From a virus, in IMG/VR virus record IMGVR_UViG_3300008114_000218, positions 5,155-46,125 of that record: a DNA stretch of 40,971 nucleotides. One strand, given 5' to 3'. Within the stretch, counting starts at the first letter, position 1, and every line of letters begins with the position of its first letter. The notes under the pieces were generated by a model. It worked only from the letters and a program-made list of their open reading frames with translations, was not told the origin of the DNA and did not search any database. Of this stretch, positions 5,183-38,095 are shown one piece after another. Made by a program: the position numbers and the translations under genes.

Positions 5183-5581
5183 TTAACTATTATTGTATTC
5201 TGAAACGAATGTACCGACCTTCTGAACTTCAAGAAGGACGTAACCATTTGCCGTACCAACAAACTCTACAGTGAGGTTTGCAGTTTGACCAACAGTTAGA
5301 GCCATACCACAGCCGGCATAATCCTTATAACCGGTTGAGTCATAGATAGCAACTGGAGTTGTTCCACGCTTAATAACTGCATAACCGTTTGGATCGATAC
5401 CCCAGAATGCCTGTGCAATATAAGCACCTGAAAGGGTTTCGTCGCTTACTGCAAGACATGTAGATGTAGCATCTACGTTTGTAGTTGTGCTGTTACCAGA
5501 TACCTTAATGGTTGTATTGGCAACTGAAACGTGAACAGTGGCAGCGGTGTTCTTCTTATTTGAAATAATTGATACGGCCAT
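5183..5581 (-). CDS. Unknown beta-rich protein inserted before gp21, possible virion component
   Basis: 132 aa, function not recognised. The sequence is Thr/Val/Asn-rich with alternating hydrophobic strands (VHVSVANTTIKVSG, ANLTVEFVG, YVLLEVQKVGTFV), as in small Ig-like or jelly-roll virion proteins. No signal peptide, membrane segment or catalytic motif is visible. The start overlaps the stop of the upstream 410-aa gene (TAATG at 5581) with an AGGTGA ribosome-binding site. Its position inside the head-assembly block suggests a capsid-decorating or head-associated protein. That is inference from context only. Confidence 0.7.
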   Translation of the reverse strand: MAVSIISNKKNTAATVHVSVANTTIKVSGNSTTTNVDATSTCLAVSDETLSGAYIAQAFWGIDPNGYAVIKRGTTPVAIYDSTGYKDYAGCGMALTVGQTANLTVEFVGTANGYVLLEVQKVGTFVSEYNNS

Positions 5582-6813
5582 TATTCACCTCTATGACTAA
5601 TTGAGAAGTCGAGCATTGATTCAACACCTTCTGGTGTTTCGCATGCTTCTAGAAACTTCTTTTGGTTGCCTTCATTTAATTTATCAAAGACAGAAAGCAT
5701 GGTACGACGATGTGTTTCTGTCAGATCACCAAGAAGATCAGCAAGCTTTTCTTCCTTGCGAAGTGGCTTACCACCACGTTCTGCAGTCAGCTTAGCAGCA
5801 ATCGCCATAGCACGACGCTTGTCTTGTGACTTACCTTTGAATTGTGGAGCATCAGACTTTTGGAAATCCTTGACTACGGTTCCCATTGAAGCCGTATCCA
5901 TGTTTAGTTTTTCTTCAATCGCTTCAACTTCTTCTTTGGTAAGCTTATCAGTAGCTCTTTTGATACCTGTTTCGCGGTTTTTACGAAGACGCTCTGCTTT
6001 ATCATAAGTATGCTGGTTAAATCTTTTACCAAAGTAACCTGTTTCACTGTCGCCTTGGTATGCAGCGATTTTTGTCAGTGGAACATTCTTTGGTGACATT
6101 ACATTCTTTGGTTGCTCAGCACCAGATGCTTTCTTGATATAAGAACCAAGAGTCTTTTTTTCTAGTTCGTCGATCTGCTCAGCTTCTTCGTTAGCAATCT
6201 TACGAATGGTATTCTTGCGATTGTAATACTTACGAGCACCATCGGCAGTTTCGCCACTCTTCTTGAAAAGACCAGGCAGTTGCTTTACTGCTTTTTTAGC
6301 ATAAGAATCTTTTGTAGTTGCGGAGATCTCATCGATCTGTTCTTCATCAAGCATATTCTTACCAAGCTTGGTACGAACTGCCTTGGCAAGCTTTGATACA
6401 TCAACGCCAAAATCTTTAGCAGCAGAACTAACATGGCTCTTGCGAATGTTATCACCATAACGCTTTTGCAGATGAGCAACAATCTTTGCAGTCTCGTCAA
6501 GCTCTTCAACTTCTTCAGTCTTCAGGCTTTCACCGCGCTTGACAAGTTGCTTACCAGAAGCTTGTGCACCAGCTGCTCTCTTACGAAGTGTCTTGGTGTC
6601 TTTTTGATCCTTTGACCAGTCTCCGCCACCCATCTTCATCTTATCGACAATAGCATTACCCTGAGCGCGAGCCTTTGTTCTGTAGCTCTTAAGAGTTGCA
6701 GTATCTAGTTCTTCAAGCTCTTCAGCTTCTTCAGCAACTTTCTTCTTCTTACCACGAAGAAGTTTAAAGTCATGAGCATCAACCTTGTTCGTCTTCGCCT
6801 GGATTGTAACCAT
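5581..6813 (-). CDS. Basic/acidic repeat protein of the prohead core region
   Basis: 410 aa, highly charged and Lys-rich. It contains degenerate repeats joining an acidic linker to a short basic helix: EELEELDTATLKSYRTKARA, EEVEELDETAKIVAHLQKRY, EEQIDEISATTKDSYAKKAV and EAEQIDELEKKTLGSYIKKA. The family is widespread in T4-like phages but its function is not established. The region occupies the place of T4 gp67/gp68, so an internal head or core protein, perhaps packaged and injected, is a reasonable inference. One good gp21 site (LNE/G) lies near the C-terminus. The start at 6813 (AAGGAT ribosome-binding site) lies inside the upstream small gene, overlapping it by 35 nt. Enzymatic function is unlikely. 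Confidence 0.75.
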   Translation of the reverse strand: MVTIQAKTNKVDAHDFKLLRGKKKKVAEEAEELEELDTATLKSYRTKARAQGNAIVDKMKMGGGDWSKDQKDTKTLRKRAAGAQASGKQLVKRGESLKTEEVEELDETAKIVAHLQKRYGDNIRKSHVSSAAKDFGVDVSKLAKAVRTKLGKNMLDEEQIDEISATTKDSYAKKAVKQLPGLFKKSGETADGARKYYNRKNTIRKIANEEAEQIDELEKKTLGSYIKKASGAEQPKNVMSPKNVPLTKIAAYQGDSETGYFGKRFNQHTYDKAERLRKNRETGIKRATDKLTKEEVEAIEEKLNMDTASMGTVVKDFQKSDAPQFKGKSQDKRRAMAIAAKLTAERGGKPLRKEEKLADLLGDLTETHRRTMLSVFDKLNEGNQKKFLEACETPEGVESMLDFSISHRGE

Positions 6814-9582: not shown

Positions 9583-9590
9583 TATTTATT
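9583..9590 (-). promoter_or_regulatory. Late promoter-like box upstream of gp19
   Basis: AATAAATA on the minus strand, 24 nt before the gp19 start and touching the gp18 stop codon. Same one-mismatch variant as before gp22 and gp23. Confidence 0.5.
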
Positions 9591-11895
9591 AGAACTGGCC
9601 GACAACTTCGTTGAACTCTACGCCGGATCTTACAGCAACAAAGTTCAGTTGGATGAAGTTGATGCTCTTAGCTGGCTTAATGTAGATGTCACCAACAAAG
9701 CGGTTTGTATCAACAACTTCTGGAGTATTGTTTGTTTCGTCGCAAACAACACGGAAGTCAGTGATACCGCGGCGGCCCTGAACATCACGGAGGAATGGTT
9801 CAATCAGATTCAAGAACTGAGCTCTTGTGAATTCATCATTGAATTCGAAGAGCATCTGGTTAGCAGCTGTTGCAATTGTCTTTTCAAGGACAATAAACAG
9901 ACGGCGAACATTGATACGATCAAATGCGCTTGAACGACCAAGAGCGGTCTTGTCACCGAACAAAACTGTTCCTTGACCTGGCTGCGTGATTACTGGGTTG
10001 ATGTCGTTCTTATAAAGAAGATCGCGATCTGTTTTGTTAGGGCTATAAGCCAGCTTTACAAGGTTCTTGATCTGGCCACGGTTGTAACCAGCTGGTGAGA
10101 ACCATGGATCACGTAGATCGTCCGAACGAGCTGTTAGACCAGCAATATCACCATTCAGTGATGCATACGAGCTGTTACGTACATTCTGACGGAATGTTAC
10201 GATGTTCGAAGCTTGTGAACCTTCAACACCTGCTCCAACAACGTCTTCCTTCTGAGGTGATACAAATACCACGCAGTCCTTACGAACATCAGCGATATTG
10301 TCAATCAGATAGTTAGCTAGCTGAGCACCAGCCGAAGCACCAACAGACTTACCTGTCATAAGCAGAGATACGTCAACCGAAGATGAATCGGCGAAGAGAT
10401 CATAAGCTGAAGCAAGAGCAGCAACAGATGTCGAACTTTCTGTTACACCATCACGTCCACCAATGAATGACTTCGAATATGGAAGTGAAGTTGTTGAGTT
10501 CGAAAGACTTGCTGCTGTAGTTGTAGCGGCTTCGCCGCGATCGTTGGTAGCCCATACATAACGTGAGTTATCGTTAATAACTGTCTTATAGAAAGTAGTT
10601 GTACCATCTTCACCAATAGCATCTGTAGCACGTGAAAGGTTCTCGTAAACTTCAAGAACTGTTCCTGGAGTACCTGAGAACATACCATCTTCGTCTACAA
10701 CTACAACACTTACTTGGTCAACAGTTGTTAGGCCACGATCTGAAAGGAAACGTGATGTGCCTGGAGCTGCTGGAACAGTATTGAAGAATTCCCACTTACG
10801 TGTGATTGTATTCGAACTGAAGTTCGATGCACGATTCCAAGTATCTTCAAATGTAATTGGGAAGTAAGCTAGAGTTAGATCGTTGAATGTAATAGCTTCA
10901 GGAAGCGACTTAATCTTCAGTGTCTGAGTACCAACACTTGTGTTACCAAGTTCAATATAATCACCAACAGACAGAGACGCTAGAAGTATTTCTGTAGCTG
11001 TTTTTGTTTCAGCATATGTAAGGTTACCTGAACCGGCATCATTTCCTGCCCAAGTAAGAACAACGTTAGCAACATTTGAATTAACAGAAACGCTAATTGC
11101 GGCATTTGCAAGTTGATTTAGTTTAAAGCCATCATCTACAGCAACAGTAGCAGGACCGGCAGCAGCACCACCAACACTGTTTCCACTGAACATGTTGATT
11201 GTGCGTGTGTACTGATTTGCTGAATCACACATAGAAACACGAAGCGAGTTACCAAGATCGCCTGGATAACGAGCTACAAACTGTGTGCTTGCGAAGGTAG
11301 CATTTGCTGGACCCTTATCTTCGAAGTCGTCTGCGTTCTTGACAATGCAGTCTGCAAGTTCAATAACACCACTGTTAGCAACAGCATTCAATGTAAGTGT
11401 ATTTGCAAAGAAGTTAAGCTGAGCATCAGTTGATGTAGTAGCCGATTTTGTAATAACTACGGCTGTATTGTTTGTGTTAACAGTTGTAGCAGATACAACA
11501 AATGTATCAGCTGGAATGCCAGCACCAAATACTGCTTGACCGGCAGCAACACCAAAGTCGGTGCCAACAAGTGTAACAGTTGTAGATGAATTCAGATTAG
11601 CTGAAGCAGCTGCAACTGTGTTTGAGAAACCAGTTGTTACAGCAGCACGACTTACATATAGAGCATTACCATATGCAAGGAAGTTAGCAGCTGTAAAGAA
11701 GGTTTCGAAATTGTCTGATGTTGGCTTGCCATAACGTGCGGCAAGAGTATTTTCTGAATCTACTAGAATGAACTTTCCGATAGGACCCCAACGGAACACA
11801 CCACCAATGGCACCAACAGTGGTTGCCAGCGATGGGATGGTAGTAGTTAGGTCGATCTCAGATACATTAATTCCAGGGCTGACTTGAAACGCCAT
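9589..11895 (-). CDS. gp18: Tail sheath protein gp18
   Basis: 768 aa (T4 gp18 is 659 aa). It forms the contractile outer sheath. The N-terminus MAFQVSPGINVSEIDLTTTI and the following VGAIGGVFRWGPIGK segment are typical. The C-terminal core is strongly conserved: RRLFIVLEKTIATAANQMLF, FLRDVQGRRGITDFRVVCD, NRFVGDIYIKPAKSINFIQL. The extra length lies in a Thr/Ala/Asn-rich insertion (about residues 90-370) that probably forms protruding surface domains, the variable part of the sheath family. The start at 11895 has a GGGAG ribosome-binding site, and a perfect late box lies 43 nt upstream. It sits between terminase gp17 and tube gp19, as in T4. Confidence 0.97.
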   Translation of the reverse strand: MAFQVSPGINVSEIDLTTTIPSLATTVGAIGGVFRWGPIGKFILVDSENTLAARYGKPTSDNFETFFTAANFLAYGNALYVSRAAVTTGFSNTVAAASANLNSSTTVTLVGTDFGVAAGQAVFGAGIPADTFVVSATTVNTNNTAVVITKSATTSTDAQLNFFANTLTLNAVANSGVIELADCIVKNADDFEDKGPANATFASTQFVARYPGDLGNSLRVSMCDSANQYTRTINMFSGNSVGGAAAGPATVAVDDGFKLNQLANAAISVSVNSNVANVVLTWAGNDAGSGNLTYAETKTATEILLASLSVGDYIELGNTSVGTQTLKIKSLPEAITFNDLTLAYFPITFEDTWNRASNFSSNTITRKWEFFNTVPAAPGTSRFLSDRGLTTVDQVSVVVVDEDGMFSGTPGTVLEVYENLSRATDAIGEDGTTTFYKTVINDNSRYVWATNDRGEAATTTAASLSNSTTSLPYSKSFIGGRDGVTESSTSVAALASAYDLFADSSSVDVSLLMTGKSVGASAGAQLANYLIDNIADVRKDCVVFVSPQKEDVVGAGVEGSQASNIVTFRQNVRNSSYASLNGDIAGLTARSDDLRDPWFSPAGYNRGQIKNLVKLAYSPNKTDRDLLYKNDINPVITQPGQGTVLFGDKTALGRSSAFDRINVRRLFIVLEKTIATAANQMLFEFNDEFTRAQFLNLIEPFLRDVQGRRGITDFRVVCDETNNTPEVVDTNRFVGDIYIKPAKSINFIQLNFVAVRSGVEFNEVVGQF

Positions 11896-16312: not shown

Positions 16313-16320
16313 TATTTATA
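16313..16320 (-). promoter_or_regulatory. T4-type late promoter box for the gp13 operon
   Basis: Perfect TATAAATA on the minus strand, 25 nt before the gp13 start. It lies five bases from an identical box on the plus strand (16326-16333), forming a divergent pair. Confidence 0.78.
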
Positions 16321-16362: not shown

Positions 16363-16701
16363 ATGTCAAACATAGTAAAGATTGACAACGTTCGTATATA
16401 CTACGGGATCACAACGCCTGAAGCGCTGCAGGCTATATTTGACTGCAAGCAAATCCTTGACGATAACAACATACCATATGGCAATCTTATATATAACGAA
16501 GTCAGTGCATATCCAGAAATATTTGCAAACCTAAGCACGTGGGCCTTCGGTACTGATTTTACACAATATACTTTTACCGATTTCCCAATTGTGACGTGGC
16601 AAGAATTCTACGATGACTTTGAAGTCTGCGATCAAGTAGCAATCTCTACAGAGATGCTTGAAGCTAGCAATCTGATTCTACTTAAAGAGTTAGTAGTTTA
16701 A
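16363..16701 (+). CDS. Lone inverted small protein, possibly thioredoxin-like fold
   Basis: 112 aa, function not established. It has its own AGGAG ribosome-binding site and late promoter box and is the only plus-strand gene among about 35 kb of minus-strand genes. The order of a beta strand (VRIYYGI), a helix (EALQAIFDCKQILDDNN), a strand and then FTDFPIVTWQEFYDDFE is reminiscent of glutaredoxin, where a cis-Pro segment precedes the last strand and helix. No CXXC is present, so a redox role is doubtful. Its stop lies 12 nt inside the end of the convergent gene at 16690. Expressed late, it could be a virion-associated or regulatory factor; this is a guess. Confidence 0.75.
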   Translation: MSNIVKIDNVRIYYGITTPEALQAIFDCKQILDDNNIPYGNLIYNEVSAYPEIFANLSTWAFGTDFTQYTFTDFPIVTWQEFYDDFEVCDQVAISTEMLEASNLILLKELVV

Positions 16702-17199
16702 CTTCTTTGGTTTGTTAATAAAATCCCCTAATGTTATAAATGCTATCTTAGCATCGCCGCTGATTGTATATTCATATTCTCTAGGGGCTATATAGTAAAG
16801 AGCTTTGACGTTAGTTTCTTCAAATACCAATGTTCCGAGTAAGTTGTATACACCGGTATTAGGAGGAACTACAATCTCTCCCTTTAGCCTTTTATATTCT
16901 GCTACAAAGGGCTTGTAACTTGAAAAACAAAGCCATACGCTATCCCCAACATAGTACTCAATTGTTGCATATGACAGATGTACATTTGTATTAACGTATG
17001 TTTCTCCCGTAACAACTCCTGACAGTTCGTTATTATCAGCGCGATATTCTCTCATCTCACCCCTATAGAGATATGTAAAGAATAAGTTCTTTTCATAGTC
17101 GCCGGTGTCGGGTATCCAATGTTTAAAATCCCCATCTCTTCTAGCGCAAATGTGAACGGTAAAACCTGTATACTTAATTTGTAAGAGAGCTGATTTCAT
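16690..17199 (-). CDS. Unknown beta-rich protein closing the modification cluster
   Basis: 169 aa, not recognised. The sequence is strand-rich (SALLQIKYTGFTVHICARRD, NLFFTYLYRGEMREYRADN, SVWLCFSSYKPFVAEYKRL). It ends with a VVPPNTGVYNLLGTLVFEE / YEYTISGDAKIAFITLGD pattern that could be a cupin or jelly-roll barrel, but no metal-binding His set is obvious. The start overlaps the sulfotransferase stop (ATGA at 17196-17199), so it is co-translated with the cluster. The stop overlaps the convergent small gene by 12 nt. It may be an accessory or recognition subunit for the adjacent enzymes. Confidence 0.72.
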   Translation of the reverse strand: MKSALLQIKYTGFTVHICARRDGDFKHWIPDTGDYEKNLFFTYLYRGEMREYRADNNELSGVVTGETYVNTNVHLSYATIEYYVGDSVWLCFSSYKPFVAEYKRLKGEIVVPPNTGVYNLLGTLVFEETNVKALYYIAPREYEYTISGDAKIAFITLGDFINKPKKLNY

Positions 17200-18098
17200 A
17201 TCTCAAAACTTCTTGGTTTGACCTTAGCACTTAATACACCATCTTCTTGTACTTCATTATAATAGGCCAACGCTTTAATTGTATTTAGCGTTACGTCAAA
17301 TGTAGACTTAAAGGCCTCGGAAGCAGTCAAATCCTGAATCGTAAGGTTATTTCTTCTTATAATATACTCTTTGAAATCGACAGGTATATTTTGTAATACA
17401 TCTGATTCCAGCTCGTCAAGAAAACTATCTGGTATGTCTTGTTGCAAACCTCTACTAATCTCTTCGAACTGGTTCACCTTTTCCTTTGTAATAGATTCGA
17501 CATTTTGCATACCGAAGAATGATAATAGTTTGTTAAACTGTGTTAGATCTAGTATCTGATCTAATGTAGTCTCATATATCTTACAATCACGTTGCTTTAG
17601 AATAGGTGTATAGTGTCTAATTCTACGCTCTGTATCAAGACACCACCAATAGCACAATTGATAGCTATGAGCGCTTTCCCAACCGTTGTATGGCAGTACA
17701 TTAGGCTCATCAGGACCACTATACCATCCTCTGATCAGCTCATGACGGCCGGGGATCCACTTTAGGTTAAACATACTTAGCGCAACTTCACGCATAGGTC
17801 TTCTTAGCACTATAATGTTTGGAGTAATGCCCTGATCGAGGAAGTGCTCAATGAAGCCTTCTCCTACCATATGCCCTGTATGAACACAATGGGTTTGTGG
17901 CTTAGAATTGAAAAACTCAATCTTGTTCTGTACAAAAGATTTACCTACAGAAGAATCATGTAGATTGGCGACTCTTACAGTGTGGAATCCAGGATCTCCC
18001 TCATGTTCAGCATATACGTCTGGAACGGTCGACAACATCGTTGCCAACTTATTTGTACCAGATCGCCCTGCTGATAGCATTAAGGTAATTGTCTTCAT
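17196..18098 (-). CDS. Sulfotransferase-family protein
   Basis: 300 aa. It has the two PAPS-binding signatures of sulfotransferases: the 5'-phosphosulfate loop LSAGRSGTNKLATML near residues 8-22, and the 3'-phosphate motif PNIIVLRRPMREVALSMF in the middle of the protein. Aromatic- and His-rich segments follow (HSYQLCYWWCLDTERRIRHY). The family transfers sulfate from PAPS to sugars or tyrosines. No signal peptide or membrane helix is visible, so it probably acts in the host cytoplasm. It is joined to both neighbours by ATGA-type overlaps within a six-gene cluster downstream of the fibre genes. The likely acceptor is a glycan or a virion fibre; the substrate cannot be read from the sequence. 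Confidence 0.85.
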   Translation of the reverse strand: MKTITLMLSAGRSGTNKLATMLSTVPDVYAEHEGDPGFHTVRVANLHDSSVGKSFVQNKIEFFNSKPQTHCVHTGHMVGEGFIEHFLDQGITPNIIVLRRPMREVALSMFNLKWIPGRHELIRGWYSGPDEPNVLPYNGWESAHSYQLCYWWCLDTERRIRHYTPILKQRDCKIYETTLDQILDLTQFNKLLSFFGMQNVESITKEKVNQFEEISRGLQQDIPDSFLDELESDVLQNIPVDFKEYIIRRNNLTIQDLTASEAFKSTFDVTLNTIKALAYYNEVQEDGVLSAKVKPRSFEI

Positions 18099-18556
18099 CT
18101 TGCCCTTGCTAGAAAGTGCATATGACTATTATTGTACACCTGGGTTCTATCAAGAGGCAGTGTCTCATCCGTTGAAGCATTATACATCATTACCTCGACT
18201 TCTGGAATGGTTTCCAGCTTTGCCCACAGTTTGCCAGTAAATTTTGTATGGGTTCTATCAGAAACAAAGATTTTCTTCTCTTCGAGGATATGGTATAGAT
18301 AGATTTCTCGACCGATGCCTTGTCCCATTAACTCGTCTTTGACATGGAATTCGTGCCCACGTACCATTGTCTCTTTAAATACCATAAGCCAGTTATATGC
18401 TACAAGAGTATTTCCGTCAAATAGTCCATAGTAAGATGAACATTTGTCATCACATCTTTTAAGCGTAAAGCCTTGAATCTCGCCGACCGTAACAGTATTC
18501 TCTCCGAACAACCTCTTACAATAGTCAAAGTCTCTGAAATCATCAATCAACCACAT
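18095..18556 (-). CDS. GNAT-family N-acetyltransferase
   Basis: 153 aa. The acetyl-CoA pyrophosphate-binding motif appears as LMGQGIGREIYLYHIL (Q-x-x-G-x-G/A pattern), following a strand containing GHEFHVKDE. The SDRTHTKFTGKLWAKL segment after it resembles a block found in many phage GNAT-like proteins. The family acetylates amines on proteins, sugars or small molecules. The start overlaps the methyltransferase stop by 10 nt. An ADP-forming acyl-CoA synthetase alpha-like gene lies in the same operon; the two domain types are fused in bacterial Pat-type protein acetyltransferases. Substrate unknown. Confidence 0.8.
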   Translation of the reverse strand: MWLIDDFRDFDYCKRLFGENTVTVGEIQGFTLKRCDDKCSSYYGLFDGNTLVAYNWLMVFKETMVRGHEFHVKDELMGQGIGREIYLYHILEEKKIFVSDRTHTKFTGKLWAKLETIPEVEVMMYNASTDETLPLDRTQVYNNSHMHFLARAR

Positions 18557-19467
18557 ATAGATACTTTCCCATTACTCATAATCCAAGCGTTTGTATCCTG
18601 AGGAATACTAATAGTAATCACTTCCCCTTTTACAACCTTCCTAGGATTTAGTATTTGACTTGGGTGACCAGCTTTTCGAATGAGTTTATCCTTATGCATA
18701 ATAGCCATATCCCACTTGATAGCTGTTAGCCATCCATCACCTATTACTTTAAGTTCAAGAGTTTTTGGCCTCTCTTCTAATGCATGATCCGATGTATAAT
18801 CAATATACGCAAGTCTAACAGGGTCTGTTAATGCTTCATACACAGCAAACTCTTTTACCACATCTCCAATGGCTCGTGGCATTTGCGAGGCCATAAGAAA
18901 CTTCTTATAATAGAAGTTGTCAGGATTGCGTAAATAGTTTAAAGTGATACCACTATCTTTCTCAACAAGAGAGATGTCATTATACAAATCCTGTGCATTG
19001 ATATCACCAAACCCACACCCAGTACCAGTATACTCTACGTGGTCTGGAACAAGAATTGTGTTTTTATGTCCAAACTTTTCTACACATTTTTTAAAGCTAA
19101 TTTGCTGGCCATCGTTAAACCAAGGCTCATGGACGTATATCATACCCAAGATTACATCAAACGTTTCACCGTCAAGATCAAGATCTTTAAAGTCCTGCTG
19201 AATAAACTCTACATTAACGTTGTTTTCTTCCGCTAGCTTACGCGCCATATTGACATTACCACAGTCGACTCCTACTACTCTAGTGGCGCCCATCTTAGCT
19301 GCCATAATAGCAAGATTACCTAATGCACCAGTTCCTAGATCCAATACAGACATGCCTGGTTTAATAATACCTGCCATAATATCTTTGAGGGAGAGCGTTC
19401 TCTCTCTTGTCTCTTTAAGAAGATAGAAGTGTTCGTATGGATTGTTGCCCACTGCTTCATCTAACAT
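18547..19467 (-). CDS. SAM-dependent methyltransferase, PRMT-like
   Basis: 306 aa. SAM-binding motif I is MSVLDLGTGALGNLAIMAAK (about residues 39-58), followed by GATRVVGVDCG (motif post I) and FDVILGMIYVHEPWF (motif II and the loop after it). The second half has an ILVPDHVEYTGTG strand and a beta-barrel-like end (LELKVIGDGWLTAIKWDMAI, VVKGEVITISIP). This order resembles protein arginine methyltransferases, which carry a Rossmann domain, an acidic loop and a beta barrel. The usual double-Glu loop is not clearly intact, so a protein target is only suggested. The start at 19467 has an AAGGAA ribosome-binding site and the end overlaps the GNAT gene. Confidence 0.8.
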   Translation of the reverse strand: MLDEAVGNNPYEHFYLLKETRERTLSLKDIMAGIIKPGMSVLDLGTGALGNLAIMAAKMGATRVVGVDCGNVNMARKLAEENNVNVEFIQQDFKDLDLDGETFDVILGMIYVHEPWFNDGQQISFKKCVEKFGHKNTILVPDHVEYTGTGCGFGDINAQDLYNDISLVEKDSGITLNYLRNPDNFYYKKFLMASQMPRAIGDVVKEFAVYEALTDPVRLAYIDYTSDHALEERPKTLELKVIGDGWLTAIKWDMAIMHKDKLIRKAGHPSQILNPRKVVKGEVITISIPQDTNAWIMSNGKVSICG

Positions 19468-19476
19468 AATGTTTCC

Positions 19477-20055
19477 TTATTTGAATGGCGGGCCGATAAA
19501 CCACATAATCAGGGCTTTTCTTTCTCCCGATACTAAAGGTGTTATTTGGTGTGGTACGTAGCCTGGAATACTATAATATGTTCCTTTTCCTTTTGGAACC
19601 TGGCGAAGACCTTGGTCGGTCATGACTTCAATATCACACCCCTCGTATTCTGATGGATCCGATAGCTGTAGGACCACAACCATTTTACGAACCATACTAG
19701 ACGCAACACTCTTTGAATGTTCTTTTTTGTCTGTATGCCATCCCACATGGCGGCCCGGTGTATCGTACTTCGAATATAGGATACCTTGAGGCAGTGCTGA
19801 TGTTATATCTAAGCCAAAGTAGCTTTCGTTTATGCGCTTTGCGTATTCACCAAATCTGTTGAATAGGAATTGTCTTTCAGGATCTTTTTTGATAAAGCAA
19901 CAAAAACCATCATATGAAAGAGTGGACATGTCTGTGTCTGTACGATCTGGCATACCATCAATAGCAATCCGTTGTTCACACAGCTCTATAAGTTTTAATA
20001 ACTCCTCGCCGGTAAACATATTGTCACCTACTACTATGTCATCAATCAGTTGCAT
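19477..20055 (-). CDS. 2OG-Fe(II) oxygenase, prolyl 4-hydroxylase-like
   Basis: 192 aa. The iron-binding triad is HVGWHTD with H107 and D109, and PHQIT with H169; R179 in SGERKAL is placed to bind 2-oxoglutarate. The YEGCDIEVM and YYSIPGYVPHQ blocks are characteristic of the P4H family (phage/bacterial PiuC-type). The reaction is O2- and 2-oxoglutarate-dependent hydroxylation, most often of proline. No signal peptide is present. It overlaps the acyl-CoA synthetase-like gene by 10 nt. Its presence a few kilobases from genes encoding long collagen-like Gly-X-Y arrays makes fibre prolines an attractive substrate, though host proteins or elongation-factor targets are possible. Confidence 0.88.
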   Translation of the reverse strand: MQLIDDIVVGDNMFTGEELLKLIELCEQRIAIDGMPDRTDTDMSTLSYDGFCCFIKKDPERQFLFNRFGEYAKRINESYFGLDITSALPQGILYSKYDTPGRHVGWHTDKKEHSKSVASSMVRKMVVVLQLSDPSEYEGCDIEVMTDQGLRQVPKGKGTYYSIPGYVPHQITPLVSGERKALIMWFIGPPFK

Positions 20056-21305
20056 ACGTTTTTCATTAGTGCAGTTGCAACATCAGGATCTCTGCAAACG
20101 ACCATCCTGTTTTTAAGAAGAGCTTTTACACCACTCGTATTATAGTTAAAGCACGTAAATATAACAGGCTTGCCGCCTTGACGAACAGCGTTTGCTAGTT
20201 GTGTTGCATATTGATAGTCCTGATCGGCATCTCTTTCGACATGAACATGCATTATAATATTATCAATCTCATCTGACTGCTGTAGGATCTTCATTACCTC
20301 AACAGCGTCTTTTGTAAACCCAGCAGAACTTCCAACCATATCGATTGGATTGGCAACAGTGGATTGATTTGATACTACATTAGTTATTTCTGATATAAGC
20401 TTTTCTGATGGTTCGTCTATGAGCAAGCTATTGAACTCAGCCGAGGTTGAAAGTATGACTCCATACCCGCCCGTGTCAGTTACTAGCATTGTTCTTTTTG
20501 CAGCTGATTTAGGCTGCCATGAATTCACATACTGGATCATGGCAGTGAAATCCATCATGTTTCTAGCAACATTCAATGCAATAGAAAGATCCGAACCTGT
20601 GTGACGCTTTGCTGCTCTGATAGCTGCCGGTGTCGCCCATGGTACGTATAAGACCAAAGGCTTGGCTAGTGTTTGAATGTATTCGAAAGGAATCTTATCA
20701 ACGCCCTCGCAATACATTGCAATGATCTCGGTATGGGTATCGTCGTTAAGACTTTGAATGATATCTTTGAGGTCCACGCCATTCTGATTACCAATAGTAA
20801 TCACACGAGAGAATCCGATACCAGTAGGTTTTAATCTTTCAGCAAGATCTACAACAAGACCTCCGCTCTGAGAAATTACTCCTACATTACCTGGCATAAA
20901 ATCTCCTAATGGGAGACAGTCTATGGGTGTGTTTGCATCCCATATACCAGCACAGTTAGGTCCGATGAACACTGTGCCGTTTTGCTTGGCTTTATCTACT
21001 ATCCGTTGTTCTAGTTCGCTATTGCCTTTTTCACTAAAGCCTGCTGTGATGCAGATGATAGCTTTGGTATTTATTTCTAATAGCTGATCGACAACAAACT
21101 CTACTTCTTCAACTGCTACACATATAACAACTAAGTCTAAAGGTTGAGGTATGTCTTTTATGGATTTGTTTTTATCTATAAGATATACAGATCTTTTGTC
21201 TTTGTGTTTCAAAAGACAATTAGATATCCAATTACCCCATTTGTCAGGGTTATTAGATGCTCCTATAACTGCTACAGAAGAAGGGTTAAAGATAAAGTCA
21301 ATCAT
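20046..21305 (-). CDS. ADP-forming acyl-CoA synthetase alpha-like protein (CoA-binding + ligase domains, no ATP-grasp)
   Basis: 419 aa. An N-terminal CoA-binding Rossmann domain starts SSVAVIGASNNPDKWG. It is followed by GTVFIGPNCAGIWD (about 111-123), VGVISQSGGLVVDLAERL and a succinyl-CoA-ligase-like domain. The phosphohistidine signature is present as AAKRHTGSDL (H235). A third flavodoxin-like domain contains TDTGGYGV and ANPIDMVGSS. The length and domain order match the alpha subunit of ADP-forming acetyl-CoA synthetases. The ATP-grasp beta subunit needed for complete catalysis is absent from the window. It leads the enzyme cluster, 16 nt after the glycine-rich adhesin. Very unusual for a phage; it could use a host beta subunit or act as an acyl-CoA sensor or carrier. 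Confidence 0.88.
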   Translation of the reverse strand: MIDFIFNPSSVAVIGASNNPDKWGNWISNCLLKHKDKRSVYLIDKNKSIKDIPQPLDLVVICVAVEEVEFVVDQLLEINTKAIICITAGFSEKGNSELEQRIVDKAKQNGTVFIGPNCAGIWDANTPIDCLPLGDFMPGNVGVISQSGGLVVDLAERLKPTGIGFSRVITIGNQNGVDLKDIIQSLNDDTHTEIIAMYCEGVDKIPFEYIQTLAKPLVLYVPWATPAAIRAAKRHTGSDLSIALNVARNMMDFTAMIQYVNSWQPKSAAKRTMLVTDTGGYGVILSTSAEFNSLLIDEPSEKLISEITNVVSNQSTVANPIDMVGSSAGFTKDAVEVMKILQQSDEIDNIIMHVHVERDADQDYQYATQLANAVRQGGKPVIFTCFNYNTSGVKALLKNRMVVCRDPDVATALMKNVCN

Positions 21306-21321
21306 AACAAATCACCAAAAA

Positions 21322-22095
21322 TTATGTATAAGCGAAGTATATTTTCCCAGCACCACCGGATGAGCCGGCATTACCTCCGTATCCTCCGTTGCCACCAGCG
21401 GATCCAGTATTATAACTGCCACTGAGTCCTGCTCCTCCAGCAGCCGAGCCAGCAGTGGTTCCAGTTGCGCCTGCATTCCCGGTCGTATTAACAACTGTTC
21501 CACCAGACGCTGATCCACCGGCTCCGCCTGCTCCGCCTGCACCGCCTATACCACCACCGCCGCCACCGCCGGACATTGATGTGAGCGATATCGACCCGCT
21601 TGTTACTGTAGATGCACCACCAGCGGCACCAGAAGTGTTGAAAGCTCCTCCTGCACCAGCGGCGCCTACTGTGTATGTGAATGTGCGACCATTAGCTTTG
21701 ACTGCTATAGAAGTACGAGTTAGACCACCAGATCCTCCACCGCCACCACTATATAATACTGCCCCACCTTTACCACCAGTGGCTCCACCACCGCCGCCAC
21801 CCGAAGCACCAATAGCTTCGATGACAACTAGCTGAGCTCCAGCTGGAATGGTTTCGGTAGCCCCTGTGGTAGCAGATGTATAGTTTCTATTCGTTGCAAC
21901 AAATTTCGTTGCTCCGTAGAAGTTACTAAAACTGATTGTGCCAGATGTAGGAATTACTACATCAGAGGAATTATATGTACCAGAGGGAACGTTAGCTCCC
22001 CCTGAATAATATTCATTTAGTCCAATAGGGTTGGCGCCACCAAATTCCGTCTGAATTTGAGCTAATGTGATGGCGCCAGAGGTCTGTAGGGTCAT
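21322..22095 (-). CDS. Glycine-rich tail-fibre adhesin
   Basis: 257 aa. The N-terminal 60 residues have the SGAITLAQIQTEFGG and SGTISFSNFYGA motifs found at the start of many environmental phage fibre-tip proteins. A beta domain (AGAQLVVIEAIGASGG) then leads into about 150 residues with many Gly runs (SGGGGGSGG, MSGGGGGGGIGGAGGAGGAGG) separated by short variable strands. The polyglycine pattern resembles the receptor-binding tip (gp38-type) of T-even phages, where polyglycine helices pack into a sandwich and loops bind the host. It lies downstream of fibre genes as expected. Probably the main host-range determinant. The Gly-rich domain here is longer and less regular than T-even gp38. Confidence 0.82.
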   Translation of the reverse strand: MTLQTSGAITLAQIQTEFGGANPIGLNEYYSGGANVPSGTYNSSDVVIPTSGTISFSNFYGATKFVATNRNYTSATTGATETIPAGAQLVVIEAIGASGGGGGGATGGKGGAVLYSGGGGGSGGLTRTSIAVKANGRTFTYTVGAAGAGGAFNTSGAAGGASTVTSGSISLTSMSGGGGGGGIGGAGGAGGAGGSASGGTVVNTTGNAGATGTTAGSAAGGAGLSGSYNTGSAGGNGGYGGNAGSSGGAGKIYFAYT

Positions 22096-22325: not shown

Positions 22326-22757
22326 TTATGTATTGGCAGTTGGGGTTGTGTTAGATGAAACAGTATTAGATACTGGTGTTGGAGTTGGTACAGTGTTTGA
22401 ACCTGGAGGTGCCCAAGGTAGAGCATCAGCATTGACTTCAACCATCGGACGAATGATAGCATCAATCTGCTTTTGAATTTGCTCATCAATGTGAGCTTTA
22501 TAACCAGGGTTACCATTTACCACATCCTGAATCCAACCAAGAACCTGAGCTTCAGTTAGATTTTCATATGTGGTAAAATTATCAGCGTCGACCTGATCTG
22601 GGTCAAATGGAGTTGCACCGTTGAACGTACCCGAATTATCGTCTTCGTCAGTTCCTGTGCATTCCCAATATGTTTGGACGATGATGTCATTAAGTTCTGC
22701 AGAAGGATCGTCCTGCTTCTTCAGACTCTTAATCTTCCAAGTATAAGTAAGTGCCAT
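22326..22757 (-). CDS. Conserved phage structural-region protein
   Basis: 143 aa. The N-terminus MALTYTWKIKSLKKQDD is a common start among T4-like marine phage proteins in fibre regions, followed by DIIVQTYWECTGTDEDDN and an N-terminal beta domain. The segment PGYKAHIDEQIQKQIDAIIR is helical, and the last 35 residues are Pro/Thr/Asn-rich and probably disordered. No enzyme motif is present. It begins just before the 1,328-aa fibre stop, with an GAGG ribosome-binding site 11 nt away. Function unknown. Confidence 0.75.
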   Translation of the reverse strand: MALTYTWKIKSLKKQDDPSAELNDIIVQTYWECTGTDEDDNSGTFNGATPFDPDQVDADNFTTYENLTEAQVLGWIQDVVNGNPGYKAHIDEQIQKQIDAIIRPMVEVNADALPWAPPGSNTVPTPTPVSNTVSSNTTPTANT

Positions 22758-22759
22758 TT

Positions 22760-25700
22760 TTATTTATCCTCTTTGAGTGAGTTAATTTGTTGTTCTAGTC
22801 TATTTATATGTGTTTGTTGTTCCTTAATTGCTTCAATTAAGAGACCAACCATGTTGCCATAAGCTACGCTATAGTTGGTTTCTTCTGAACCAAGCACAAC
22901 TTCAGGAATTACTTCTATTACTTCCTGAGCGATTACACCCATCTGTCTTGTATTAGTATCTATACGTGTATATGTATAACCGTTTAATCTGCTTACTTTT
23001 TCAACAGCGTTATCAATCTTGACAATATCTTTTTTCAAACGAGCATCTGAATATGCTGTGATGTTGTTAAGCATCGTCAGGTTGCCAGACATATCCATCT
23101 GAAGTAAGTTGGCCGATGCTGACCATCCACCAATTCTAAATACGTTGTCTGAATCAAGTCCCATATTAACAGCAAATACACCAGCTCTGTGGAACGACAT
23201 AGTTGCGCCACCAGATGATGAATATGCTTGTAGCTGTTGCCCAGTATCTGTTGTATTTTTGTTAGATTGGAAATATTGAACACCAGTCCATGTGGCGCTG
23301 AGAGACGTAAACGAATTCAATACATGCTGAACCGAAGATTTTCTATAATAACCATCAAGACTACTATTAACAGTAATGAACTGTCCAATAGTCGGATTTT
23401 CATTATTGCCAGTATTACTATTAATATAGTTCAGGAAAGTATAACCGTTTTCCTGTCGTGTTACAATTGTATTTGCACCAACTCCATTTGATGCATGAAA
23501 ACCATCAAGCAAATCAGCATCTAGACCAGAACCAGCGCCGTCATTTCCATCATTCCAATGTTTTTTCCAGCCTTGCGCGGTACCGCCCATAATAGTCTGA
23601 GTGTATATGTCACCTACACCAGTACCAGTCATACGAATTGCAAGTGTGTTACTATAATAAGATAACGGAGATCCGTGGCCCATTCTTATTGTGTTGTGCC
23701 AATCCCCTGATGGTGCCTCATTTGTGCCAAGACCTGAAGCCTGCCAATATTGTAAGGAATCAGATGGAGTGTCTCTAGTCGAGTTTAAATAATTTCCATA
23801 TTGAGCGGTCCCTGAAACATTGATACTCCAGTTACCCGAAGCAGCACCGCGAATAGCAACTGCAACAGCACCAGGTGTTGTACGAACCAACTGATTGGTT
23901 GTAGGGTACATTGACGTCAATACTGTAGGAGTCTGTTCAGAAAGGCCCGAACTTAGAATGATTTCACAAGCCGCAATATCACCAGCAGCATCGCGATATG
24001 CAATGGTGCTTCCAGTCGGAGCTGTTGTTGGATTGTTGAATCCCGAAATCGATCCAGCAGTGCCGGTAACATTAATACCCCAGTTTCCAGATGCGCCGGT
24101 GCCTGTTAGAGTCGGAGCGTAGCTATTGTAATTTATATCCGTAAGTACTCTATTCCACGTCTGCCAGCTAGAATCAGTCCAGCCGCCACGGAAGATTAAA
24201 TCGTTCCCTGCATGAGAAATATACATTTGAGCGCGCGCATTAGCATTAGCACTGAAATTAATCAGTGTTCCATATTTGTATGCAGCAGTTGTAGGGAAGT
24301 TAGAGTTGCCCGTTCCACCAATATTAAAATGATTTTGATATATTTCATTGATAGTATTGACAGCATTGCCTAGAGTATTCCAGTTAGTATTGTCAGTGCT
24401 AGGAGCTCCAACACCTCTCATAACTGCGGAGCCGCCTACGGTCAGACTGCTTAGGACGCTGGATCCATTAGGATTAACAAAGAAGGCTGAGTCTTCTCTA
24501 TCCGTTAGAATGTTACCGATAATATCACCAGCTCTAAATGTGGTCCATCCTGTACAATCGCCATTCATCAAGTTAAGTACGTTAGCGCTGTCCAAGACTA
24601 ACTGGGACGCTACTCTTCCACCCCAATGAAAGCTAAGTCGAGGGGCGTTGTTATATGAGGTGGTCTGTGCACCAGCGTACGAGCGTTCGCGTATTTCAAG
24701 CGCGGTATCATAATACAATGCAGAGTCAACGGTGCTAGCAAGAACCACATTAGCAAGCGTGGAATCGCTGGCAGGATCAACATAATAACCAGTGCTATCA
24801 CTATCACGAAAGATAGGGGCGCGCATATCTGCGTTGCTTGCCACTATTCCATAAACAGTGAGATAAGATCCATCAGCAGTATTTGGCCCAAACTTCATTA
24901 GTGCCGTATAAGAGTTCGCTGTACCAGCAGCGTAATCAAGATAGAGAGGAATTCCTCCACCATCATCAAACTTACGAAAACGGTGTCTATATTGACCGTT
25001 AGTATAATTACCATCGAAAACTAACCCGTTAGTTGTATTGCCTGTGCCTACACTCCCGGTAATAATTCGCGCGATTAGGTTTATATCTACTCCAGCTAGG
25101 TTTGATGTACCGTTAGGATCTATGTAATAGGCAGTGTCGGGAATATTATAGAATATAGGTGCTCGGCTAGATGTTCTTGAATAAGAATCACCGGCACCAG
25201 AAATATTAAATTCGTTTCTGGCAACATAGTCAGTATAAGTTCTTTTATTTCTAAAAACCCACTGATCAGTTAGATAATCTTCAATATCATCAACAAGCTC
25301 AAATACCATACGAACTTGGTTCGTAGCAGGAGATTCTCCGTACAATCTCCAACCATCATTGTCACCTACAGCCTGTGACAACAAATATGGTGGTACACTA
25401 CTTACACCATCTCCGTATGTGGTTCCAGTAGGATTTTGTGGAAGCGCGGCTGGACCTGCAGGACCTTGTGGACCAGTTGGTCCCTGAACAGTAGAACCTG
25501 GAGGTCCTGCCGGTCCCTGTGCTCCAGTTGGACCCTGAACCGTAGCACCAGGAGGGCCGGCCGGTCCTTGAACTGTAGCACCAGCAGGTCCAGCAGATCC
25601 AGTAAATCCTACTGGTCCTTGAGCTCCTTGTGAGCCGGTCGGACCTTGAGCACCAGTAACACCTTGTGGGCCAATTTCACCTTGCGGTCCAGTTGGACCC

Positions 25701-31493: not shown

Positions 31494-34397
31494 TTACTTC
31501 GCCAGTTGAGGATCCAGCAGCAGACCACTCGATTTCAGGGTGAGCAAAGTTATTACCCTGTTCGATTGTTCTGTTTTGGCCAATGGTAATTTTCTTACCC
31601 CATGAGGTACCATCGTATCCCCATAGAGCAGCATCGTTATTCTCCCAGCATTAGCAAAGTAAATGCTGCTTGCAATACTCGACGACCCATCAATAAAGGA
31701 CCTGAATCCGCTACCAGCGCGAGTTTCAACTGTTACTAACTGCGAAGTGCCATTCGGATTAACGTATCGATTCGTGTCGTCTGTATCGTAGAAGATAGGA
31801 GCACGGAAGTCAGCGCTAGCTGTTGCAGATCCACTACTATTTACTGTAAATCTCCAAGCGCCCAAATAGAAACCAGCAGAACCGCTGTTTTCAGAACCCA
31901 TGAATATATCAGATCCACCGTTAAAACTGAGCCATACGCCTGGTGATCCTCCATTGAGGAATGGTGTTCCAGAACCATCACCGACTGATATTCGGTTTTG
32001 GAATCGAGCTTGATTTAATCTACTTGTACTTGCACCATCAAAGTAATACGTGGTATCATCACTATCATAGAAGACAGGAGAACGGGTAGAGCCATCAAAC
32101 TGCGCGATACCAGTATTCGTGATAGATGCAACATTCACCCCGGTAAAATCGTTTCCACCTACGGTAGCGCGACGGAATATCCATGCTCGGCCAGACGTAT
32201 CCATTGTAAAGTATGTGTTATAACTTGCGGTTGCTGCGCCGTGCGTTGCCCAAACACCGCCAACATTTTTAAATCCAATGGCAGACGTGGTAGTGTTACC
32301 ACTATCCCATAAGAATAATTGGTTACCCGTTCCTTGAGCACTTTGATCTCCTCTAATAGCTACACTCCACAGCTGAGAGTAACCTGTAGGATCTGCATAG
32401 TAACCAGTATCATTCGAATCATAGAAAACAGGTGCACGAAGAGATACTTGCCCTGTTGCATAGCCGCTTCCAACAAATAACGAATACGTTCCGGTATCGT
32501 TGGTACCATCTGTATAGAAATCAAGGCCACAGCCACCAGTTCTAATTCTAGCATTGTTGTTAACATCTAACGGACTAATCCAAACAAAGTCAGAGTTATC
32601 ATTGTTTTGAATTTGAAGCGCAGATGTCCAACCTCCTGGATAATTTCCAAAAAGTATCTCGCTTTGTGTCGCGTCTTTAATAACTACTGTACGTCCAGCT
32701 GCTCCGTTAGTTGCAGTGTTGAATTTTGTAGTATAAAGATTTGAACCACCCGCCATATTAGAGTAATAAGCAGTGTCATCGCTATCATAGAAAACAGGCG
32801 CACGAACATCTGCCCCACTTTGCAAAGAATTGTTTGTGTAAACAATTGTAGGAGCTGTAAAATCAGAAATGTTTGTTGCAGATGGTGATTGATATACAAG
32901 TATGTTACCGCCATGTGCACCATGAGAAGTAACTTCTGGCCAGCTGGTTTCAATATAAGTTTGGTATGTAGTGTAATACATCACATCAACATAAACAGAA
33001 ATATAATAAAAATCACCAGACACTTGAACTGGAGAACTGCAAGCAACCTGTGCATGTCTTCCGCGAGGAGATGCACCTGCTATAAGATAACAGTGTACGT
33101 TATTATAATCATAGGAAATTGACCAGCGCTGATAATCACCGCCGTAATAGTAGTTATTGTGGATTTCTACAAATGTAGTACCAGCCCCATGCCAGTCATT
33201 AAAATCAATATAAAGTCTGGCAATTTCATGGCGTCTAGCTTGTGTACCAGCAGCACCCAATGCTCCAAGATAATATTTGCGGTGCGCTCCCATAATTGAT
33301 GTGCTTGTTGCAACAATGGTATTAGCATTTGTAATGCTATAACCATTCATATTCACATTAGCTTGAGCAGTTCCACCCCACGATCCGGTATAACCAATTG
33401 GACCTTGAGCACCCTGTGGACCAGTAGGTCCTTGTGGACCAGTAGCACCTTGAGGTCCCTGTGCACCAGGAATACCAGCAGATCCAGTGAAGCCAATCGC
33501 TCCCTGTGGACCTGTAGCTCCTTGTGGACCAGTAGCACCTTGCGGTCCGGTTGGTCCCATTGGTCCTATTATACCCTGTGGACCTGTAGCTCCCTGTGGA
33601 CCTTGTGCTCCCGCAGGACCCTGTGCACCTTGAGCACCGGTAACTCCTTGTGCTCCTTGTGGACCTGTAGCACCTTGTGGACCAGTAAGTCCTTGGGCAC
33701 CTTGTGGTCCAGTCGCTCCCTGAGGACCTTGAGCACCAGTCGCTCCTTGTGGGCCAGTAAGTCCTTGAGGTCCTTGAGCACCAGTAGCTCCTTGTGGGCC
33801 CTGTGCACCAGGAATACCAGCAGATCCAGTAAAGCCAATCGCTCCCTGCGGTCCTGTAGGTCCTTGAGCACCAGTCGGACCCTGAGCACCCGTAGCACCC
33901 TGCACACCTTGAGGACCTATAGCACCCTGTGGACCGGTTGCTCCTTGTGTACCTGTAGGACCTTGTGCACCTTTAACGTTCTGAAGCTCGATAGCATTTA
34001 ACGTAGGACCAGATGTTTCACCAAAATGCGTATTGCCACCCTGAGTAACTGTGCAATAGAGATAATAAGTATACGTTCCAGCTGCAGGGTTGTCGATGTG
34101 TGTAAATGCAAATGGACTGTTTTCACTGCCGGCAGATCCTTCATAGTGAACGTTGCCACTAATAGGTGTTGACCCACGCCAAAGTTGCAACTTACCCCAA
34201 GACCCAACTGCTTTATTTTCTGCATCACCGTATGCACCAATCTGTACAGGTGAACCACTAGTTGTGATAGTTACCGATGCTATTGCTTTAGGGACCGAAT
34301 CGCTTGTAGTTACAAAAATCTGCGGAGCAGTATTCTGAACCCAGAATAACGCCCTGAGGTCCTTGTGGTCCAGTTGCACCTTGTGGGCCAGTAGCAC
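31494..34397 (-). CDS. Giant collagen-like fibre A, piece 2 of 4
   Basis: 967 aa in this frame. The first 18 residues (to about 34340) are a shadow of the collagen repeat in the wrong frame, and true sequence starts near [14 protein letters not shown]. It is followed by a beta domain, a long Gly-X-Y array (33385-33975) ending [11 protein letters not shown], and shaft domains with four FYD-x-x-D-T-x-YY repeats. From about 31644 it leaves the true frame, and the last 50 residues ([11 protein letters not shown] onward) are spurious. It therefore has a frameshift at each end. Confidence 0.85.
31644..31646 (-). other. Apparent frameshift 2 in fibre A
   Basis: At a GGG run the frame SIYFANAG must move -1 to continue as [12 protein letters not shown]. 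Loss of one G from GGGG would produce exactly this. Confidence 0.78.
33385..33975 (-). repeat. Collagen-like Gly-X-Y array 2 of fibre A
   Basis: Tandem Gly-X-Y units ([30 protein letters not shown]) with interruptions [10 protein letters not shown] and GPMGPTGP. Pro is mostly in the X position, and Gln/Thr/Ala in Y. The internal sequence [19 protein letters not shown] occurs twice. Confidence 0.9.
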
Positions 34398-35385
34398 CCT
34401 GTGGACCTGTTGGACCAGCGACTGTAGAAGCAGAACCAGTAAAACCTATAGCACCTTGTGCACCCTGAGCGCCTTGTGCTCCAGTAGGACCTTGTGTGCC
34501 GGTTGGTCCTTGAGCTCCTGCTGGTCCTTGTGCACCCTGAGCACCTTGTGCTCCAGTAGCTCCTGTCGAACCAGTATAACCTGGATTGTTTGACCAGTAT
34601 ACTGAAGTTCCGTCTGAAACAAGCGCTTGGCCTGCAGTACCTAGAGATCCATTGGCATAGATTGAATTTGCATAAAGAGTATTTGCTTGGAAGTCAGCAA
34701 TCTTAAAGCTGGCATTTGCTGTATCAATAAACGGTGAAGTGTCTGGCTCTGGAAGATAACTATCAAAGACTTTATATCGACCATCAGTCGCATCACGAAA
34801 GAAGCCAGTGTGATGATACGTTCCGTCGTTATATCCTGCCGAGAAACCAATATCAGGATTCGAGTCGGTCTTACCACGAGCAGTACCACCAGAGCTATAT
34901 GAATCTACATTGGTATTTGAAACAGTAAAGTGAGTAGCATTGGCAAATAGAATGTTGTTATAAGTTCCGTTGAAAGAACTTGGCGAAATGCCGGCAACAA
35001 ATACATCCCATCCAGCAGAGAAGTTGTTGTTTGCAACAAACGTAACAGTAGAGCCATTACCAGTAGCATTCGTAACCGTAGCAAGAATACCTTGGTTCAT
35101 ATAAAGCATGTTATCAGTAATAGACAGGTTATTGCCTGAGATACTGATAGTTGTACCAGTTACACTGAGGTTACCACCAATTGTAACATTACCACCAACA
35201 TTCAACGAGGCTAGATTTGCACCGACTTCAAATGCAACAGATCCGTTTGAGGAGTAGACTTTATGGTCAGTAAGATTAACTGCAAACTCGCCAGCATCAA
35301 TATAAGATGTGTTGCCAGAGTTTGTGGTGTTTGGTGTACGGCCAGAAATAGTCGTACGTTTGAATTGAATCTTATTGTTTGCCAT
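34288..35385 (-). CDS. Giant collagen-like fibre A, piece 1 of 4 (N-terminus)
   Basis: 365 aa from the ATG at 35385 ([10 protein letters not shown]), chosen because GGGGAG lies just upstream; the in-frame TTG at 35397 overlaps that site. The N-terminus is a fibre attachment domain with [18 protein letters not shown]. It also has [16 protein letters not shown], a [20 protein letters not shown] block shared with the fibre protein at 38275, and [20 protein letters not shown] Gly-X-Y array follows from about residue 263. True coding ends near 34345; the last 20 residues ([11 protein letters not shown] onward) are out of frame. The four pieces joined would be about 2,470 aa. Confidence 0.87.
34340..34352 (-). 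other. Apparent frameshift 1 in fibre A
   Basis: The frame ending ...GPQGPQGVI must move +1 to continue as [10 protein letters not shown]. One extra base in or near a CTGGG stretch explains it. It lies at the edge of a repetitive array. Confidence 0.75.
34360..34595 (-). repeat. Collagen-like Gly-X-Y array 1 of fibre A
   Basis: Gly-X-Y units [19 protein letters not shown] and following, interrupted by [12 protein letters not shown], the same module as in fibre B. Confidence 0.88.
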
Positions 35386-35430
35386 ATGGCTCCCCAAAGC
35401 AGATATATATCTTGTAAGCCAACTATTTAG

Positions 35431-37499: not shown

Positions 37500-38095
37500 A
37501 AAAAATCTTAATTGCCATACCAACTGCTCGTTATATCGAAGCAGATACATTCAAATCGATCTATGATCTGGAAGTTCCTGAAGGATATGAAACAACCTTT
37601 CAATACTTCTATGGATACAGAGTAGATCAGGTTCGTAACCTGATTGCCGACTGGGTTGTACGTGGATTTGATTATTTGTTTTCAGTCGATCATGACATTA
37701 CGTTTCCACCAGATACATTAAAGAAGCTTCTTGCTCACGATAAAGATCTGGTTTCTGGTGTGTATCGCCAGAGACTTGAACCACAGATGCTTGAAATCTA
37801 CGAACCGTTTGGTACACGTATGACAACTGAAGACCTCTATGCAAAGGACTGGAATCTAGTTGGCATTGGTGGTTGTGGCTTTGGCTGTGTGCTTGTCAAG
37901 AAAGAAGTATTAGCAGGTGTAGGCTATCCACAGTTTGAATATCATCCTGCTCTCGATCACAGCAATACGATCAGCGAAGACACTGATTTTTGCAAAAAGG
38001 CAATTACTAAAGGCTTTAGGTTGTGGTGTGACCCATCAATTCGTTGTGGTCACATTGGTTCTACAACTATGGTTGTAGAGATTCCGAAGATTTAG
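37496..38095 (+). CDS. GT-A-type glycosyltransferase
   Basis: 199 aa. It starts MKKILIAIPTARYIEADTFK, has a nucleotide-sugar region YRVDQVRNLIADWVVRGFDY and a DxD-type motif in FSVDHDITFPPDTL (about 62-75). It ends with GGCGFGCVLVKKEVL and SEDTDFCKKAITKGFRLWCD, the pattern of compact phage and bacterial GT-A enzymes. Translationally coupled to the upstream two-domain transferase (ATGA overlap), so the two probably build one sugar chain. The 3' end overlaps the opposite-strand coiled-coil gene by 29 nt. Confidence 0.85.
   Translation: MKKILIAIPTARYIEADTFKSIYDLEVPEGYETTFQYFYGYRVDQVRNLIADWVVRGFDYLFSVDHDITFPPDTLKKLLAHDKDLVSGVYRQRLEPQMLEIYEPFGTRMTTEDLYAKDWNLVGIGGCGFGCVLVKKEVLAGVGYPQFEYHPALDHSNTISEDTDFCKKAITKGFRLWCDPSIRCGHIGSTTMVVEIPKI

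Follow-up and report, generated by a model that had tools for sequence, protein, structure and literature searches.

A T4-like phage genome fragment was found to encode a protein that, as judged from its sequence and predicted fold, is a phage version of the alpha subunit of ADP-forming acyl-CoA synthetase (ACD), with predicted catalytic activity. The 419-aa protein is a known kind of enzyme in a new setting and with an unusual loop architecture, and its gene is the first of six tightly packed cassette genes located behind the tail-fibre genes. The setting outweighs the enzyme itself, since the cassette occupies a swappable site at which T4-like phages hold differing sets of genes for acyl, sulfo, methyl and hydroxyl chemistry, with late-type control. 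This raises the question of whether T4-like phages build or decorate a virion protein, a glycan or a lipid-like molecule late in infection, as opposed to a simple rewiring of host metabolism. The DNA analysed, hereafter the window, comprises 40,971 nucleotides, bases 5155-46125 of the 46,125-base virus record IMGVR_UViG_3300008114_000218; positions are those of the window, and (-) denotes its minus strand. T4-like genes for portal, capsid, scaffold, protease, sheath, sheath stabiliser and neck proteins are present on the record, and the isolates closest to it by capsid were Stenotrophomonas phage DLP_6 (63%), Pelagibacter phage Mosig (61%) and Methylophilales phage Melnitz (61%). Comparison of a 12.5-kb region with annotated phages gave no match at the DNA level.

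The open reading frame at 20046-21305(-) starts with ATG and encodes 419 residues with the domain order 1-2-5. In the ACD nomenclature, 1-2-5 is a complete alpha chain and 4-3 is the ATP-grasp part (PMC11494057), and the phage protein is a complete 1-2-5 chain devoid of 4-3. Pfam searches placed CoA_binding_2 at residues 10-121 (8.7e-16) and Succ_CoA_lig at residues 138-238 (5.4e-24), both above cut-off, and the ligase-CoA domain, whose own Pfam model gave no match, was covered by TIGR02717 and by the predicted fold. TIGR02717 (acetate--CoA ligase alpha) spanned residues 4-417 of the protein and positions 3-443 of the 447 in the profile (1.2e-63, 215 bits). Because this score is below the curated equivalog cut-off of 567 bits, assignment as an acetate--CoA ligase was rejected. 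Succinyl-CoA synthetase alpha (SucD) was also rejected, with 68 bits against a TIGR01019 cut-off of 353 bits and a third domain present in the phage protein; SucD shares the CoA-binding and flavodoxin domains with a histidine loop but is an alpha chain without domain 5, and it matched phage residues 57-226 alone, weakly. The best solved relatives were PH0766 (2csu, 3e-44) and the ckcACD1 alpha chain (4xyl). An AlphaFold model built from a 68-row alignment reached a pLDDT of 89.7 and a pTM of 0.88, and with this model Foldseek retrieved 2csu (3.7e-29), ckcACD1 and thaumarchaeal hydroxyacyl-CoA synthetases, with TM scores of 0.79-0.88 to ACD structures. The first-pass annotation, made from the letters alone, had proposed an ACD alpha-like protein at this position and had suggested a profile search and a structure prediction. 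Both agree with it: the TIGR02717 match runs end to end, the model matches the ACD1 and PH0766 structures, and the predicted fold is intact, with neither a disrupted CoA pocket nor a lost histidine loop.

Residue conservation was scored in an alignment of 64 cellular relatives and the phage copies, 68 sequences in all. The 15 columns invariant in the 64 cellular relatives are all kept in the phage protein, including H235, E200, the GPN at 115-117, G148 and G279, as are 33 of the 39 near-invariant cellular positions. The codon for H235 (20601-20603(-)), the phosphohistidine position within HTGS, aligns with the catalytic histidine of every one of the 64 cellular relatives and is present in all phage copies, while E200 (20706-20708(-)), a position with a catalytic role in the ACD family, is invariant in 68/68 aligned sequences. 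Both power helix caps could be located in the alignment. The first, SQSGG at residues 145-149 (20859-20873(-)), in which S147 and G148 are invariant, corresponds to G163/A164 of Nmar_0206, and the second, G279-G280 (20466-20471(-)), to G310/G311 of the same protein (PMC11494057). The GPN and HTG motifs reported at first reading are real, as GPNC at residues 115-118 and H235 in HTGS. The phosphohistidine had in addition been described as intact, which is true of the residue, but 14 residues are lost just past it and about 10 in the CoA domain. The 14-residue deletion site follows residue 241 (20580-20585(-)), immediately C-terminal to the histidine loop, and the 10-residue site (2+2+6 alignment columns) follows residue 46 (21165-21170(-)) in the CoA-binding domain; each was seen in 0/64 cellular relatives. 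A further 5-residue deletion follows residue 212, and the larger internal gaps belong to the phage clade alone, none of the 64 cellular rows sharing them. The departures from near-invariant positions are D44, A64, T170, W223, R234, which is immediately N-terminal to the histidine, and T287, three of these changes being G223W, S234R and D287T. By the alignment, the residues for the chemistry are all there, whereas the loop and what is probably the partner interface are remodelled. The changed region (the 14-residue deletion, R234, W223 and T287) probably contacts the beta subunit, and the changes near H235 could impair phosphorylation. Compared with the ADP-forming acetyl-CoA synthetase alphas (TIGR02717; PH0766/2csu; ckcACD1/4xym), the phage protein is alike in its 1-2-5 order, phosphohistidine, power-helix glycines, GPN, E200 and standalone chain, and differs in its 27-33% identity, its 10- and 14-residue deletions, a score below the equivalog cut-off, its place in a phage late cassette and the lack of a beta gene on its contigs.

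The ACD gene was found on six contigs in all, the window record and five further IMG/VR contigs, with T4-like flanks in each. Three of the copies are nearly identical (99-100%) and three are at 87-88% identity, with no indels, and the gene is under purifying selection and selectively maintained (dN/dS 0.077, window versus L003), so that its occurrence goes beyond chance. The best match among the scanned cellular genomes was only ~30-36% identical, which together with the T4-like flanks indicates that the gene is not bacterial contamination. Accordingly, the initial proposal of a phage-encoded protein stands; no near-identical bacterial gene was present among the genomes scanned, and a bacterial contaminant or misassembly was rejected. 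In the tree, a long branch (1.87 changes per site) leads to a single clade of phage copies, which grouped, with support of 100/98, with fused Rhizobiales and uncultured bacterial proteins. These nearest proteins, of the 'acetate--CoA ligase family' (Microvirga, Mesorhizobium, Rhizobium and two uncultured bacteria), have a KWG motif in common with the phage protein and are 30-36% identical to it but, unlike it, carry their own ATP-grasp domain in the same chain; the fused copy of Rhizobium gallicum lies within a cluster of acyl-CoA dehydrogenase and CoA-transferase genes. A single-protein scan of genome contigs yielded no close cellular homologue, a mixed-alignment scan of them returned 80 loci with the best at ~34%, and nothing better than ~34% was obtained from 398 genomes of the phylum of one mixed-alignment match. 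At ~30-36% identity to the nearest known cellular proteins, the origin of the gene is old or unsampled.

Such a protein had been called unexpected in a T4-like phage, and the viral searches agreed. There was no like protein in PHROGs or in well-annotated phages, no convincing match to the 419-aa model in the BFVD library of predicted virus structures, and no bacterial-type ACD alpha in a low-sensitivity viral scan, so that in the viruses of the collections searched no ACD alpha was found beyond this small phage group. Matches among annotated phages (gut fragments, SucD-like genes and very short records) were at most 27% identical and were treated as probable bacterial DNA. No paper on phage ADP-forming acyl-CoA synthetases was found in the literature searched. 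Since ACD alpha was not found in PHROGs, BFVD or annotated phages, save for these short or poorly annotated, likely bacterial records, the present protein extends the enzyme superfamily to phages.

The gene order around the ACD gene is tail fibre, DUF7936, 69 aa, glycine-rich, ACD alpha, 2OG oxygenase, methyltransferase, 153 aa, sulfotransferase-like, 169 aa and gp13, and this order is common to the six contigs as far as each reaches. In the window, cassette genes overlap by 4-10 nt or are separated by a gap of 9 nt. The ACD gene shares a 10-nt overlap with a gene for a 2OG-Fe(II) oxygenase of 192 aa (19477-20055(-)) that keeps HxD (107, 109), H169 and R179. It is followed by a SAM methyltransferase of 306 aa with a standard SAM fold (18547-19467(-)), whose best solved relative is an arginine methyltransferase; because the matches cover the SAM domain only, an identity as protein-arginine methyltransferase was rejected and the protein was left as a methyltransferase. 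The next protein, of 153 aa (18095-18556(-)), could not be assigned by sequence alone, its sequence match being weak, and its structure was therefore predicted. The model was of moderate quality (pLDDT 73), and its 23 Foldseek matches at E <= 0.001 were GNAT-type acetyltransferases, which points to a GNAT fold with a G-Q-G-I-G loop. A 300-aa protein (17196-18098(-)) is sulfotransferase-like by a weak Pfam match (0.0025) and the motifs SAGRSGT, LRRP and ALS, and the last cassette gene (16690-17199(-)) encodes 169 aa with no family match, conserved at 90-100%. Directly upstream of the ACD gene, across a 16-nt gap, lies a gene for a glycine-rich tail-type protein (21322-22095(-)), and further upstream a gene for a DUF7936 protein (22326-22757(-)).

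The DUF7936 gene is the first gene past a late-promoter-like motif, TATAAATA, located 49-51 nt upstream of it (22801-22808(-)) and conserved in every contig reaching the site. TATAAATA is the T4-type late motif (PMC2984593) and is enriched in the window, with 7 found versus 2.3 expected; a CTAAATA promoter variant was not above chance. The motif search located the TATAAATA of gp13 past the downstream end of the cassette (16313-16320(-)), and none was present on the coding strand between these two. With TATAAATA ahead of the block and none inside it on the coding strand, late co-expression with the tail genes is likely.

The site between the tail-fibre and neck genes is swappable, with recurring genes for acyl, hydroxyl, methyl and sulfo chemistry. 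Between contig L002 and the window, the cassette is 98-99.5% identical and gp13, gp14 and gp15 are 81%, 77% and 60% identical; the cassette being far more alike than its neighbours, the block moves as a unit between phage backbones. Among 80 gp13 relatives, there were four (L108, L109, L135 and L121) in which the same flanking DUF7936 and 69-aa genes were found and the site was empty. In 8 of the 80 (L107, L112-L116, L118 and L122), a fatty-acid desaturase gene was found upstream of gp13, and these sister phages mostly carried sulfotransferase-like and 2OG oxygenase genes at the site (cargo at L122:5762-8968 and L118:4587-8915). Beside its tail-fibre genes, the Kyanoviridae isolate Pelagibacter phage Mosig EXVC030M likewise has genes for a desaturase, 2OG/Asp-Arg hydroxylases, a methylase and an N-acetyltransferase; it differs in that the annotation of the stretch inspected includes no subunit of an acyl-CoA synthetase, and it was not listed in the phage-wide tblastn. 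The large biosynthesis-like cluster adjoining the tail-fibre genes of this isolate (L187, Mosig 53738-66304) contains MoaA-like enzymes, aminotransferases, a desaturase, hydroxylases, a methylase, an N-acetyltransferase and a carbamoyltransferase.

As first reported, the beta subunit is absent here: neither ATP-grasp_5 nor ATP-grasp_2 was detected in the whole 46-kb record or in the five further ACD contigs, all six being fragments. ATP-grasp_5 was also missing from 20 sister records of up to 162 kb, which lack the alpha gene too. In Pyrococcus furiosus, each of the five alphas is functional with each of the two betas, the alpha setting the acyl substrate and the beta the nucleotide (PMC3942289). 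Among cellular genomes, 29 loci located with a home-made profile held standalone alphas with no beta in the fetched locus, and a Desulfobacteraceae genome (G008, MAG S2_4) gave 22 alpha-type matches; of its ATP-grasp_5 domains, three are part of long fused frames and one has a standalone frame of 240 aa. This genome is a possible natural many-alphas-one-beta system in bacteria. With so many alpha-type matches beside just one standalone beta in this genome, a missing neighbouring beta gene is not odd in itself, and by analogy with this genome, the lone cellular alphas and the mixing in P. furiosus, borrowing of a host beta subunit appears plausible.

The reading that we tentatively prefer, at somewhat below an even chance, is that the alpha chain and a beta subunit, most likely from the host, make acyl-CoA for the neighbouring GNAT in a late tailoring pathway, with partner and substrate put forward as candidates. 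The phage alpha would pair with an ATP-grasp beta encoded outside this DNA, most likely by the host or else by unsequenced phage DNA. The gamma phosphate of ATP would be accepted by the beta and handed on to H235, where the alpha would use it to couple an organic acid with CoA, unless the reaction runs in the opposite direction, with the acyl substrate presumably set by the alpha, as in P. furiosus. Late in infection, the GNAT-fold protein would transfer the acyl group from this acyl-CoA, and with the 2OG oxygenase, the methyltransferase and the sulfotransferase-like protein the target would be decorated, be it a glycan, a tail-fibre protein of the virion or a small molecule. Counting against this reading are the lack of a beta in the six contigs and the 20 sister records, the altered histidine region, the low TIGR02717 score and GNAT and sulfotransferase assignments that are weak by sequence.

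The main rival, which we consider unlikely, is a non-catalytic acyl-CoA sensor or scaffold, that is, a split PatZ-type system whose ACD-like part binds acyl-CoA and switches the neighbouring GNAT on. The ACD alpha and the GNAT-fold protein are encoded in one operon, the PatZ structures 9it0 and 9isq were among the Foldseek matches of the 419-aa model, the histidine loop region is altered, and in PatZ-type proteins the ACD domain binds acetyl-CoA and is needed for GNAT activity (PMC8556138). However, the regulatory domains of the type II enzymes have no catalytic histidine and are for that reason inactive (PMC8556138), whereas the phage protein keeps H235 and all other invariant residues; moreover, the phage GNAT forms a chain of its own and there is no ATP-grasp part at all. 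PatZ and the type I and II GNAT protein acetyltransferases resemble the phage pair in associating an ACD-like part with a GNAT but do so in a fused chain with a catalytically inactive ACD domain, and with separate ORFs and H235 present, assignment to this type was rejected.

Two further readings are rather improbable, to a similar degree. In one, the phage has a complete two-subunit enzyme with its beta encoded in an unsequenced part of the genome, the six records being pieces of a genome whose length, judged from sister records and isolates, is likely 130-190 kb. Against it, no ATP-grasp_5 was present in sister records of 128-162 kb, though the alpha is also missing there, and a viral scan for ATP-grasp beta, which was not sensitive, gave one partial match, on another contig. 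In the other, the alpha chain with its re-shaped histidine loop may work without a classical beta, for example through an exchange between acyl-CoA and phosphate or by switching the separate GNAT in response to acyl-CoA, and the acyl groups it supplies would serve to modify virion tail fibres, or else a secreted or surface molecule, at a late stage. Less probable again is a classical auxiliary metabolic gene that alters host CoA-thioester or ATP metabolism independently of its neighbours, as the first-pass annotation had in part suggested. Homologues are indeed metabolic enzymes in acyl-CoA gene clusters, but the gene belongs to an operon of overlapping tailoring-enzyme genes that moves as one block and is preceded by tail-fibre genes and a late-promoter motif. 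Of the first interpretation, the unexpected phage-encoded ACD alpha with its phosphohistidine and the absence of a beta here stand; a role within a late tailoring cassette adjoining the tail-fibre genes is a better fit than a lone gene that shifts CoA-thioester energy. A catalytically dead relic or a binding-only recruit with no acyl-CoA role, to which the unique deletions and the branch of 1.87 changes per site might point, is very improbable given the dN/dS of 0.077 and the retention of every invariant catalytic residue.

Other features of the window were recorded alongside. A lysine/glutamate-rich 410-aa protein without a PHROG match is encoded at 5581-6813, with portal and protease genes on either side. 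The tail sheath protein (9589-11895) is, at 768 aa, much longer than the 496-position PHROG model that it spans, which suggests a large inserted domain. Amid the minus-strand tail genes, two plus-strand glycosyltransferase-like genes (35466-38095) encode proteins of 677 aa, with group-1 and family-2 glycosyltransferase domains, and of 199 aa. Collagen-like (Gly-x-y) tail-fibre proteins are encoded at 31494-35397, and the window also holds genes for 2OG oxygenase and glycosyltransferases; these fibres are a conceivable target of prolyl or lysyl hydroxylation.
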